Below are positions 40,660 through 49,140 of a stretch of DNA of 64,000 nt, piece after piece. The notes below the pieces were generated by a model. The model was not told the DNA's origin, did no database searches, and was given only the letters and a program-made list of their open reading frames with translations. Within the stretch, counting starts at the first letter, position 1. Every line of letters begins with the position of its first letter. Origin of the DNA: Flavobacterium sediminis (GTDB taxonomy: Bacteria > Bacteroidota > Bacteroidia > Flavobacteriales > Flavobacteriaceae); assembly GCF_003148385.1 (NCBI RefSeq), contig NZ_CP029463.1:2046001-2110000 (forward strand). The letters run 5' to 3'. Made by a program: the position numbers and the translations under genes.

Positions 40660-41025
40660 ATGGACAAAAAGAAAATAGTTTTAGTAGAAGACAATGCAGT
40701 ATTTTCAATGATACTGAAGTTTGTATTAGAAAAAGAAGGGTATTCTATGTTTTTGGCTGGTGACGGAAAAGAGGCTAAAACATTGATAGAGTCAGAAAAT
40801 CCGGATATAGTTTTGTTAGATGTTATGCTGCCTTATGTGAATGGTTTAGAGGTTGTTAGTTATGTTAGAGGGATGTTAGATATGACTATGCCTATTATTG
40901 TTTTTTCTGCATCAGGGCAAGACGATATGGTTCATAGAGTAAGAGGGGTCGGGGCAAATGACTTTATAGAAAAGCCTTTTGATCCGGATAGCCTTGTTGT
41001 GCGAATAAAACAATTTCTAAATTAA
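40660..41025 (+). CDS. Stand-alone receiver-domain response regulator
   Basis: A 121-aa protein that is a receiver domain alone. It has the acidic pair Glu10-Asp11, the phosphoacceptor Asp54 (VLLDVMLPYVNG), a Ser at 83 (IVFSAS) and Lys105 (EKPFD). There is no output domain, so it must signal through protein contact. It is the first gene of the polysaccharide cluster, 25 bases ahead of the HEAT-like protein, which makes that membrane protein or the glycosyltransferase its likely target. No kinase is next to it. Confidence 0.9.
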   Translation: MDKKKIVLVEDNAVFSMILKFVLEKEGYSMFLAGDGKEAKTLIESENPDIVLLDVMLPYVNGLEVVSYVRGMLDMTMPIIVFSASGQDDMVHRVRGVGANDFIEKPFDPDSLVVRIKQFLN

Positions 41026-41050
41026 AGGAGTATAGCACTTAATAATTGTG

Positions 41051-42142
41051 ATGGGAATAATACAGTACTTAAAAGACTACTATTACCAATTACCTTTATT
41101 GGTACAAGTAGTTTGGCTATTAATATTTTTTTTCATTTTATATATTCTTATTCTGATCTCATATATAGGTTTTATAAGAGGCGCATTAAGAAGCAAAAAC
41201 AAAGAACGCATTGTATACAAACGTTTTTTTGAAGACTTGTTGTTTAAGTATATAGTTGCGTCCAGTGCAGAAGAAAGGGACATAATTCTTGTTAAGTTTA
41301 ACAGGCAGATTTCAAAAAAATTCAGACGTAAAGTACTTGTATCTAGTTTATTTGGGGTTATGATGCAGGTTTCCGGAGAAAAGGAAGAGTCGGTAAAAAA
41401 GATATATAGTGAATCAGGTTTAGAGCAATTGGCTATTAAAGACTTAAAGATAGCGAACAAGTGGAATGTTATAGCAGGGGCTCTGGTAGAATTAATGAGG
41501 TTTAAAATTGATAGTGATGAAGCTAAGAATTACGCCAAACGATATATAAACCATGAACGGGAAGAAGTTAGAAGAAAGGCACACCTTTACCTGATATCTT
41601 TGTTTGGATTTAAAGGACTATTCTTCTTAGACGAGTTGACCGAAGGTCTTTCAGAATGGATACAGATTCAGTTACTTGAAAACCTCAGGAAGTTTGATGA
41701 CCGAGAAATGGAAGGATTACATTCATGGTTGCAGTCAAAGAACGATACAGTAGTACTGTTTGCATTAAAATTAGCACGAATATATAAACGTTCAGAAGTT
41801 AAGGACGACTTGTTTGAACTATTATCTCATGAAAATGTGAATATAAGAACATATACTATTATAGTATTAGTTAGTCTATTGGGTAGTGAAGCTAAAGAGA
41901 GGATCAGACCGAAATTTAATGCTTTGGCTCTTGAAGAAAAGATATGTTTTCTTGAATTATTAGAAAAAGAAGCGACACCGGAAGATATTTTACTTGCTAA
42001 AGAGAATTTGCAGAATGAAAATTTAGAGCTATCCTTTTTAGCACAAAAAATAATAGCGATCAACAACTCACTAACTATGGAGAGTTTGAACGATTTACAA
42101 TCAAGGCAACTTTCTTCTGTTGCGCTAAAGTCAAAAAAGTAA
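41051..42142 (+). CDS. Membrane-anchored HEAT-like repeat protein
   Basis: A 363-aa protein with one N-terminal transmembrane helix (about residues 16-40) and a cytoplasmic all-helical region that reads as degenerate HEAT repeats (EEVRRKAHLYLISLFG, KNDTVVLFALKLARIYKRSEV, ENVNIRTYTIIVLVSLLG). I start at ATG 41051; a GTG sits immediately before it. No enzyme motif is seen. It lies between a receiver protein and a glycosyltransferase, 13 bases before the latter, which suggests it is a scaffold relaying phospho-signals to the synthase. This is inference. Confidence 0.7.
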   Translation: MGIIQYLKDYYYQLPLLVQVVWLLIFFFILYILILISYIGFIRGALRSKNKERIVYKRFFEDLLFKYIVASSAEERDIILVKFNRQISKKFRRKVLVSSLFGVMMQVSGEKEESVKKIYSESGLEQLAIKDLKIANKWNVIAGALVELMRFKIDSDEAKNYAKRYINHEREEVRRKAHLYLISLFGFKGLFFLDELTEGLSEWIQIQLLENLRKFDDREMEGLHSWLQSKNDTVVLFALKLARIYKRSEVKDDLFELLSHENVNIRTYTIIVLVSLLGSEAKERIRPKFNALALEEKICFLELLEKEATPEDILLAKENLQNENLELSFLAQKIIAINNSLTMESLNDLQSRQLSSVALKSKK

Positions 42143-47292: not shown

Positions 47293-47322
47293 GTGTATAG
47301 AACAATTTTAAACTAAAGGATT

Positions 47323-49140
47323 ATGATAATCAGAAATTCAAGTGTTTTTGTATTTGTCTTATTTTTTTTAAATTCTTTTTCACAGAAGGCCCAAAGCCCT
47401 GTTGATTTCTCAGATTGTAGCTTTACAGCTGTTGCTCACAGAGGATATTCGGAGTTTTACCCGGAAGATACTTTGCTTGCCATTGAAGAAGCCTTTAAAA
47501 GAGGAATAAAATACTGTGAGGTAGATGTAGCGATAAGTAAGGATGGTGTATATGTTTTAAGCCACGATCCCCATACTATTTCCAGAACAACGGATGGTAC
47601 GGGAGCTGTTTCCGACAATTCTTATGCAACACTCATGGCACTTGAAACCGGAAAATGGAAAGAAAGTTATTTTGAGGGAACTTCGTTTCCCCTTTTAGTA
47701 GATGCTTTGAAGTTGGCACAAAAATATGATGCTTGTCTATATCTGGATGTAAAAAACTTTAGTGGCTCGATGTTAAAACAAGCACTCCTGGAGTCTGGTG
47801 CTGACCCTATAAGAATGATGCCGGCAATAACAACAATAGCTGCTTTGAACGAGTTTAAAGACAGTTGCCCTGATTCCCCATGGGTATGGTTTGGTGGAAT
47901 GCCGGAAAATCCTGAGGATGTGGATTGGTATAAATCAAAAGTACAGCTTGGTTGCAAAGTCTTCGAATTAGCGGAAGATGATGTGTTAAAAGGCAGTGAC
48001 TGGGCTAGCACTTTCATTGATATGGCTCATGACTCAGGGGCAAAAGTATGGGTATATACGGTTAATAATGAAGAAAAGATTAAAGAATATGCGAATATGG
48101 GGTTTGATGGAGTGGAAACGGATAGGCCTTATGTAGCCCAACTTGCCGTATGCGGATACAATCCTGTTTCTGATTATCCGAAAAAAGAGACAACAGGTAA
48201 TTGGAATTTTAAAAAAGCCGATTTTGAAAGTAATGGTGTGGGTTCCCGATTGAAAAATTTTCAGAAAGATAGTACACTGCTGCAGTCGGTGGAGTTTGGA
48301 ACAACAAGTTATTTTGGTATTGCCCCTGTTAGCGGTATGGATGTGACAGTGGCCAAAATTCCGGCTTATAACCCTCATAATGGTTTGTTTGTATACGATA
48401 ACTTTATGATGGAGGATTATGGCGCCTTAGATGCTTCCTACTCAGTTATAGTTGATCTCTATGTGGCCTCAGTTAATAAAGGAAAATATATCTCATTGTT
48501 GCAAACAAATCCGGATAATTTGGGCGATGCTGATTTTTTTATTAATCCGGACGGACAATTAGGAACTCTTGACAGCTATCATGGAAATTTTGATTTTGAC
48601 ACATGGCATAGGTTGGTATTTGTACTTGATGGGAACGCAATAAGGAAATACCTTGATGAAGCGTTTATCGGCGAAACAGAGGCTCCCTTAGGTTTGAAAA
48701 GATGGCCTGTTTTTAACAATATGGCTTACCATGGTAAACATGGTTTCTTACTTTTTTCAGATAATGATAATGAAACTGCAGCAGTTTATATTAATGCTTT
48801 GCAGTTGCGTAATTATGCAATGAGCGAAGCAGAAGTATCTTTACTTGGAGGAGTAAGTCCTAATGGAATACCTGTAAATAATAAGAAACTTTTTTCAACG
48901 GGCATTGACAGTCTGGAAACCGAAATGATCGATTGGGAACAGCAAACTATTTTTATAAAGCAAAAAAGCACTGGTAACAATTTTAAAGTGGCTTATGATT
49001 TACAGTTGAGTTATGGTGCCAAAACAGATATTCCGACATCCGGATGGTTCAACTTTAAAGAGGGAAACGGGTCTGTGACGTTTAAGGTAATTGCTGCTGA
49101 CGGATCATCAACAAATTGGACGATACAGAATATTCCTTAA
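47323..49140 (+). CDS. Exported glycerophosphodiester phosphodiesterase with LamG-like and C-terminal beta domains
   Basis: A 605-aa protein with a signal peptide (ends NSFSQ, about residue 20). The GDPD domain (about residues 35-285) has the catalytic HRG (VAHRGYSEFYPEDTL), the metal-binding EVDVAISKDG and the second His in LSHDP. A concanavalin/LamG-like sandwich follows (about 330-510), with a final beta domain of the DUF5018-like kind (about 525-605, GSVTFKVIAADGSSTNWTI). GDPD enzymes release glycerol-3-phosphate from glycerophosphodiesters, so this one may trim or recycle the phosphoglycerol added by the upstream enzyme. It starts 30 bases after the YaiO-like gene. Confidence 0.85.
   Translation: MIIRNSSVFVFVLFFLNSFSQKAQSPVDFSDCSFTAVAHRGYSEFYPEDTLLAIEEAFKRGIKYCEVDVAISKDGVYVLSHDPHTISRTTDGTGAVSDNSYATLMALETGKWKESYFEGTSFPLLVDALKLAQKYDACLYLDVKNFSGSMLKQALLESGADPIRMMPAITTIAALNEFKDSCPDSPWVWFGGMPENPEDVDWYKSKVQLGCKVFELAEDDVLKGSDWASTFIDMAHDSGAKVWVYTVNNEEKIKEYANMGFDGVETDRPYVAQLAVCGYNPVSDYPKKETTGNWNFKKADFESNGVGSRLKNFQKDSTLLQSVEFGTTSYFGIAPVSGMDVTVAKIPAYNPHNGLFVYDNFMMEDYGALDASYSVIVDLYVASVNKGKYISLLQTNPDNLGDADFFINPDGQLGTLDSYHGNFDFDTWHRLVFVLDGNAIRKYLDEAFIGETEAPLGLKRWPVFNNMAYHGKHGFLLFSDNDNETAAVYINALQLRNYAMSEAEVSLLGGVSPNGIPVNNKKLFSTGIDSLETEMIDWEQQTIFIKQKSTGNNFKVAYDLQLSYGAKTDIPTSGWFNFKEGNGSVTFKVIAADGSSTNWTIQNIP

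Follow-up and report, generated by a model that had tools for sequence, protein, structure and literature searches.

A conserved flavobacterial polysaccharide-synthase cassette with an LtaS/OpgB-type transferase and its own outer-membrane barrel, likely drawing on phosphatidylethanolamine

If phosphatidylglycerol (PG) is absent, which head group would an LtaS-type enzyme transfer? The question is raised by a gene cassette in a 64,000-nt stretch of Flavobacterium sediminis DNA (NZ_CP029463.1, positions 2,046,001-2,110,000), here called the window, whose own numbering is used for its coordinates. The cassette encodes a lone receiver domain, a HEAT-like solenoid, a predicted processive family 2 glycosyltransferase (GT2), a membrane transferase of the LtaS/OpgB branch and a YaiO-type outer-membrane barrel. 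We tentatively read these five genes as encoding a machine for the synthesis of an exopolysaccharide, for its likely decoration with phosphoethanolamine (pEtN) and for its export through a dedicated barrel, a reading on which we stop just short of even confidence.

The original prediction had described six co-directional genes, and the open reading frames and Pfam matches place all six on the + strand in the families that it named. First comes REC (40660..41025), a lone receiver with phospho-acceptor D54 (Pfam Response_reg, 94.6 bits), followed by the HEAT-like alpha-solenoid protein with one N-terminal membrane helix (41048..42142), the predicted GT2 polysaccharide synthase (42156..43589; Pfam GT2, 71.1 bits), the membrane transferase with C-terminal tetratricopeptide repeats (TPR) that we call LTAS-TPR (43608..46031; Sulfatase, 98.5 bits, plus TPR), and a protein that combines TPR with a YaiO beta-barrel, the predicted exit pore (46043..47224; Pfam YaiO, 191.6 bits, plus TPR). 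Gaps of only 11-22 bp separate these five, and 98 bp separate the YaiO gene from the sixth, an exported glycerophosphodiester phosphodiesterase (GDPD; 47323..49140; Pfam GDPD, 116.6 bits), which is better described as a neighbour of the cassette.

The five genes travel together. A search for relatives of the LtaS-like protein, with one genome per species, found 462, of which the best 80 were read with flanks of up to 10 kb; by their titles these loci come mostly from Flavobacteriaceae genera. The LtaS-like gene has GT2 as its neighbour or fusion partner in 79 of the 80, with HEAT present in 73 and REC in 70. YaiO is the first co-directional gene to follow it in 78 and lies within three genes in all 80. 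Of the 74 loci uncut by a contig end, 68 have the whole set side by side and in one direction. Among 149 genomes of the window's family, the LtaS-like protein, called at E <=1e-60, is carried by 41, and the five genes are adjacent and co-directional in 34 of the 40 carriers left when the window genome is excluded. The 80-locus and 40-genome counts are not independent, since the two sets partly overlap (at least five locus pairs: L034/L119, L006/L120, L057/L141, L063/L142 and L082/L116). Neighbours named by eye served as controls in the same 80 loci: a histidine kinase, an isochorismatase-like gene and a Crp-like gene were counted in none and LysR in 2, while the 39 counted for LytTR tell us nothing, since the receiver domain of LytTR also matches the REC genes. 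The linkage of the five cassette genes is far beyond chance, and a synthase-linked LtaS/OpgB-type enzyme with an outer-membrane barrel of its own, which had been put forward from the one locus, is a conserved arrangement of the Flavobacteriaceae. Searches of the open-licence PMC literature aimed at this arrangement listed no description of it.

In some genomes the synthase and the transferase are a single protein. One frame of 1260-1296 amino acids (aa) joins GT2 and the LtaS-like domain in 3 of the best 80 loci and in 1 of the 40 family genomes. Phylum-wide, 40 of 392 genomes match the LtaS-like protein; in 20 loci from 20 of these, chosen partly for long frames, nine have a single GT2-transferase frame of 1134-1266 aa. 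A HEAT gene lies upstream of all nine, with REC directly before it in six, and YaiO is found within three genes of eight; in eight of the nine, the match to the window protein stops by residue 646, before its TPR. Such fusions are evidence, independent of gene linkage, that both enzymes act on the same chain.

Judged by its profiles and alignments, LTAS-TPR is by descent a member of the LtaS/OpgB branch and not of the EptA/BcsG branch. Its periplasmic alkaline-phosphatase-superfamily domain (residues 240-560; 44325..45287, + strand) keeps the LtaS-type catalytic set E252, T291, H411, D483 and H484, with H499 beyond it in the alignments, and both sequence and fold searches of the PDB lead to LtaS, LtaP and the LtaS-like VP1736. 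When a profile of the relatives with intact active sites was compared by hhalign with named enzymes, E. coli OpgB was matched at 96.7 percent probability and EptA, EptB and BcsG at about 1 percent each, which places the family outside the EptA/BcsG branch. The model of LTAS-TPR reaches a predicted local distance difference test (pLDDT) value of only 67, and its fold matches are therefore taken as evidence on the branch and not on the shape of the pocket. The second glycerol-phosphate site of LtaS, a Ser/Asn/His group that follows the Asp-His pair (excerpt of PMC4192460), is absent from the window protein, which has P488 by alignment and T490 and Q491 by ungapped extension after D483-H484; because of this absence LTAS-TPR is, on its residues, not a lipoteichoic acid (LTA) synthase. 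A likeness of D343 and H499 to features reported for EptA was considered and left unused, no alignment having backed the equivalence.

The lipid genes of the window genome, a single contig 99.99 percent complete, bear directly on the donor. It holds exactly one match to the CDP-alcohol phosphatidyltransferase family (PF01066), whose score is 96.1 bits for the PssA profile, close below the cut-off of 107, and 28.6 bits for PgsA; by these profiles it is PssA-like, and single hits in other genomes are presumed to be of the same kind. No PgsA scores over its cut-off in this genome, nor is a cardiolipin synthase recognisable in it, the sole phospholipase D-type matches lying in a polyphosphate kinase (Ppk). 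Psd is present, and with the PssA-like gene it makes phosphatidylethanolamine (PE) the expected phospholipid of the window genome; PE is the only phospholipid reported for the flavobacterial genus Formosa in an excerpt of PMC12943765. With neither PgsA nor cardiolipin synthase recognisable in a near-complete genome, PE is the likely donor and pEtN the likely decoration, favoured over the phosphoglycerol of the original prediction, which the single PssA-like enzyme likewise disfavours. Such a transfer has a parallel in BcsG, which moves pEtN from PE onto cellulose beside BcsA (excerpt of PMC11379886). A second, stand-alone LtaS/MdoB-like protein of 638 aa is encoded elsewhere in the same genome (G000:C1:1523697-1524509, L002), and the donor puzzle extends to that protein too.

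One alternative, the reading of the original prediction, is that the LtaS-like protein adds glycerol phosphate whose source is PG or some other glycerophospho-lipid that an enzyme escaping recognition produces; we consider it unlikely. Several observations weigh on its side and against PE as donor. Characterised LtaS enzymes take glycerol phosphate from PG (excerpt of PMC4192460), so that LtaS/OpgB descent, with characterised members that use PG, argues away from PE. The pocket does not decide the matter: the His, Trp and Arg of the LtaS pocket correspond to Cys336, Asp343 and Lys345 in the window protein, OpgB, an annotated phosphoglycerol transferase I, is without them too, and the head group is settled by no pocket residue that the alignments offer. 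A second or third PF01066 match is present in 18 of the 41 genomes with the LtaS-like protein, and a CDP-alcohol phosphatidyltransferase of about 200 aa in some genomes of the family (L088-L094, L097-L100) finds its best NCBIfam match in PgsA, at 47-50 bits against a cut-off of 109 in the two scanned; a PgsA may have diverged beyond the reach of PF01066, or glycerol phosphate may come from another donor. Two further points count against the machine that we favour as a whole, whatever its donor. The trait is patchy, a match being absent from at least 20 genomes that belong to the window's genus, and none of the 20 phylum loci has the five genes adjacent and co-directional; GT2 adjoins or is fused to the LtaS-like protein in 11 of these loci, and YaiO lies within three genes in 18.

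Against the transfer of glycerol phosphate stand, besides the window genome's own lipid genes, the 17 of 26 genomes with an intact active site that have a single PF01066 match and hence no second transferase (15 of 23 after three divergent outliers are dropped; 6 of 15 for genomes with a degenerate active site, described below), and the finding of PgsA over its cut-off in just 1 of the 149 family genomes, by a cut-off strict enough that only 6 of 14 control genomes pass it. The window protein also lacks the second glycerol-phosphate site of the chain-elongating LtaS (excerpt of PMC4192460). Across the family the LtaS-like protein and a second CDP-alcohol transferase show no association (18 of 41 genomes with the protein vs. 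40 of 108 without it, Fisher p 0.46), a single match being found in 23 of 41 and 68 of 108, respectively. A phosphoethanolamine transferase was the identity that the original prediction had named as contrary to its own; the lipid genes of the genome now point there, and the LtaS/OpgB ancestry of the enzyme does not.

The GDPD gene would seem to speak for a glycerophospho- substrate, as it directly follows the cassette in the window, and the original prediction had made it the trimming enzyme of a six-gene pathway. That membership is not borne out and was rejected: a match of at least 40 bits to the window GDPD occurs in 0 of the best 80 loci, and across 140 loci no open reading frame passes E 1e-3 and 35 bits. 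The predicted co-occurrence holds for the five genes within the family and fails for GDPD, and in the 20 phylum loci the order varies. Two 36.6-bit matches, in L102 and L130, cover 7-9 percent of the query length. L130 and four orthologues are true GDPD-superfamily proteins of a different kind (PF03009 at 33-43 bits in the five scanned, three of which also have an ILEI domain), a group in which L102 and L133 are placed by similarity (members L101:5058-6359 and orthologues L102, L130, L132, L133, L134 and L136). This different gene adjoins YaiO on the opposite strand in 7 of the 9 genomes of one clade with intact transferases and nowhere else in the set; on its side away from YaiO it is flanked by what we take, from the N-terminus, to be an rpoD-type sigma factor gene. 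It stands beside 0 of the 15 cassettes with a decayed transferase, and the pattern, phylogenetically confounded as it is, could suit a glycerophospho- substrate and so also counts against PE. Just past the window GDPD, on the - strand (window 49159-50935), a LytTR response regulator and sensor kinase pair can be seen by eye; the sensor kinase recurs in 0 of the 80 related loci.

In part of the family the active site of the transferase has decayed. At least three of the six positions E252, T291, H411, D483, H484 and H499 are replaced in 15 of 41 genomes (for example E252D, H411K/S/Q/R and D483S/T/N), and every catalytic residue checked is kept in the other 26. The degenerate proteins are full-length frames of 768-807 aa, and their cassettes are otherwise in order: the GT2 motifs are intact, and HEAT, GT2 and YaiO are retained, in 15 of 15, and all five genes in 14 of 15. 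In a tree of 38 rows, from which the outliers G077, G088 and G116 and the six catalytic columns were left out, the degenerate label required two changes in 990 of 1000 bootstrap trees, one for a clade of 14 genomes and one for G104. Within the degenerate clade the mean identity of the catalytic domain, 47 percent, is about that of the TPR (46 percent), and in two intact clades the catalytic domain is the better conserved, at 63 vs. 49 and 78 vs. 65 percent. Since 15 of 41 relatives retain the protein without a working active site while the GT2 motifs are invariant, the LtaS-like protein probably also serves a structural role, its membrane and TPR parts forming a bridge between synthase and barrel.

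This raises the possibility that the protein is mainly a structural or co-polymerase subunit, a bridge in the manner of BcsB, with any catalysis that is kept being hydrolytic or minor and not decoration. The decayed active sites in cassettes that retain GT2, HEAT and YaiO are what would be expected of such a subunit, as are the TPR tail, the fusion to GT2, and the presence of only five conserved genes, none of them BcsB- or PgaD-like by Pfam and NCBIfam. We nevertheless think it quite unlikely that structure is the main role, as 26 of 41 genomes keep all the catalytic residues checked and no other part of the intact proteins is as well conserved as the catalytic domain (mean identity 63 and 78 percent, vs. 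39 and 69 percent for the membrane part in the same two clades).

That the glycan is an exported exopolysaccharide is suggested by the synthase and the barrel. The GT2 carries the motifs expected of a processive synthase, D96, DVD 174-176, GED 281-283 and QRNRW 325-329, and these positions are invariant in 111 of 111 aligned sequences. The barrel belongs to the YaiO family by two profiles, PF19413 (191.6 bits) and TIGR04390 (171.2 bits), both over cut-off. No BcsB, PgaD or Alg44 co-polymerase and no cyclic di-GMP (c-di-GMP)/PilZ domain appears among the Pfam and NCBIfam matches of the six proteins, the other neighbours being mostly unscanned, and a defence-system library gave zero matches for the three cassette-region proteins scanned. 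The cassette might instead act on a lipid-linked or cell-wall glycan, as the GT2 is only moderately PgaC-like (its nearest NCBIfam family, PgaC/IcaA, is matched at 133 bits against a cut-off of 422) and searches for YaiO in the open-licence PMC literature brought up one paper with a single mention. With the QxxRW motif invariant, and a YaiO gene no more than three genes from the LtaS-like gene in 138 of 140 loci, this is very improbable.

Regulation of the predicted synthase may lie with REC and HEAT. Among the aligned receivers, all 94 from loci that have no degenerate transferase retain D54, as do 13 of the 14 from degenerate loci. The HEAT protein scores below threshold in Pfam (HEAT_2, 22.4 bits, cut-off 27.7); the assignment is upheld because AlphaFold2 models the protein with confidence (pLDDT 88.6) as an alpha-solenoid bearing a long helix at its N-terminus. 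Fold searches return generic solenoids only, the best in the PDB being alphaRep and ARM/HEAT solenoids. An Arg/Lys-rich stretch follows the membrane helix, which suggests that the solenoid is cytoplasmic, and we predict it to be an adaptor. In one Lutibacter locus (L070) a hybrid kinase of PAS-HK-REC-Hpt architecture (histidine kinase, HK; histidine phosphotransfer, Hpt; Pfam) lies directly upstream of the cassette, and from this a phosphorelay into REC and HEAT, replacing c-di-GMP/PilZ, is a reasonable inference; in the window itself, no histidine kinase can be seen by eye over the 3 kb that precede the cassette.

In the machine that we favour, a hybrid kinase like that of Lutibacter perhaps phosphorylates the receiver, whose action on GT2, on the cytoplasmic side of the inner membrane, would be relayed by the HEAT solenoid; GT2 would polymerise and extrude the glycan. 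The LtaS-like domain would move a phospho-head-group from a lipid, here most likely PE, onto the emerging chain, which the C-terminal TPR of LTAS-TPR (residues 641-807; 45528..46028, + strand; TPR_19, with helices in the model) and the TPR of the YaiO protein would then pass to the barrel, with the LtaS-like protein probably doubling as the structural bridge from synthase to barrel. As to how this came about, it is possible, though we hold it with some doubt, that an LtaS/OpgB-lineage enzyme in bacteria with PE as their only phospholipid switched from PG to PE and became the built-in, sometimes fused, decorating subunit of a synthase controlled by REC and HEAT, and that in one clade and one further lineage catalysis was then lost and the scaffold kept.

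Variants of the cassette are seen in the same collection of loci. A sister cassette without an LtaS-like gene, made up of HEAT-like, GT2, YaiO, DUF4838 and REC genes, lies beside the main one in L033 (L033:14335-20842), with the same layout in L060 and L074; the DUF4838 of L033 is PF16126 at 318 bits. A DUF4838 gene also follows YaiO in the LtaS-like cassettes of L067, L076, L081, L083, L114 and L163, and its product is perhaps a glycan hydrolase. Near the LtaS-like gene of nine loci (L148:5613-6797, L157:8665-9831, L109-L111, L147, L159, L160 and L162) there is a family of about 390 aa that by eye is membrane-anchored and periplasmic and that had zero Pfam matches in the two members scanned.

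The pEtN-cellulose system of E. coli, BcsA-BcsG-BcsC, likewise pairs a processive GT2 with a membrane-anchored head-group transferase and has an outer-membrane barrel with periplasmic TPR (excerpt of PMC11379886), but the window transferase is of the LtaS/OpgB branch rather than EptA/BcsG, the barrel is YaiO rather than BcsC, REC and HEAT are in the cassette while BcsB and PilZ were not found among its genes, and in some genomes transferase and synthase are fused. By its predicted parts, the cassette resembles synthase-dependent secretion systems, has YaiO as its exit, and would work as BcsA-BcsG-BcsC does, although its transferase does not belong to BcsG's family. LtaS and LtaP share the fold and the catalytic set E/T/H/D/H with LTAS-TPR, which differs from them in lacking the second glycerol-phosphate site and the pocket His/Trp/Arg of LtaS, in its C-terminal TPR and linkage to a polymer synthase, and in belonging to a genome in which no PgsA is recognisable. 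OpgB (MdoB) of E. coli, phosphoglycerol transferase I, is the closest Gram-negative relative of named function among the profiles tested; its donor is PG, and no synthase is found among its neighbours in 12 kb, the gene being unlinked to GT2 or YaiO.

The yaiO-yaiX-yaiP-yaiS cluster of E. coli has yaiP, annotated as a putative glucosyltransferase, together with YaiO, so that a glycosyltransferase and YaiO already associate elsewhere. Its annotated neighbours include no LtaS-like, HEAT or REC gene and instead an acyltransferase (broken by an insertion sequence, IS) and a deacetylase, and E. coli YaiO, at about 257 aa, would from its length be too short for the TPR half. The poly-N-acetylglucosamine (PNAG) systems PgaABCD and IcaADBC have the nearest GT2 by NCBIfam profile, and PgaA has the TPR-plus-barrel architecture also seen in the cassette's YaiO protein; no PgaB- or PgaD-like gene is found among the five, and the barrel is of a different family. 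YejM/PbgA/LapC, which acts in lipopolysaccharide (LPS) and lipid control, is, like the degenerate members described above, an LtaS-like membrane protein with an altered active site. It is also a structural neighbour of the LTAS-TPR model, and its status as an enzyme is debated (excerpt of PMC7576196).

The pEtN-modified cellulose of E. coli is a known precedent for decorating a synthase-made polymer with a phospho-head-group. These Flavobacteriaceae, which apparently lack the textbook lipid donor of LtaS-type enzymes, seem to have taken on a different branch of the superfamily for this task, and in the clade with a decayed active site nature has set up an experiment by which the structural role of such transferases can be told apart from the catalytic one.

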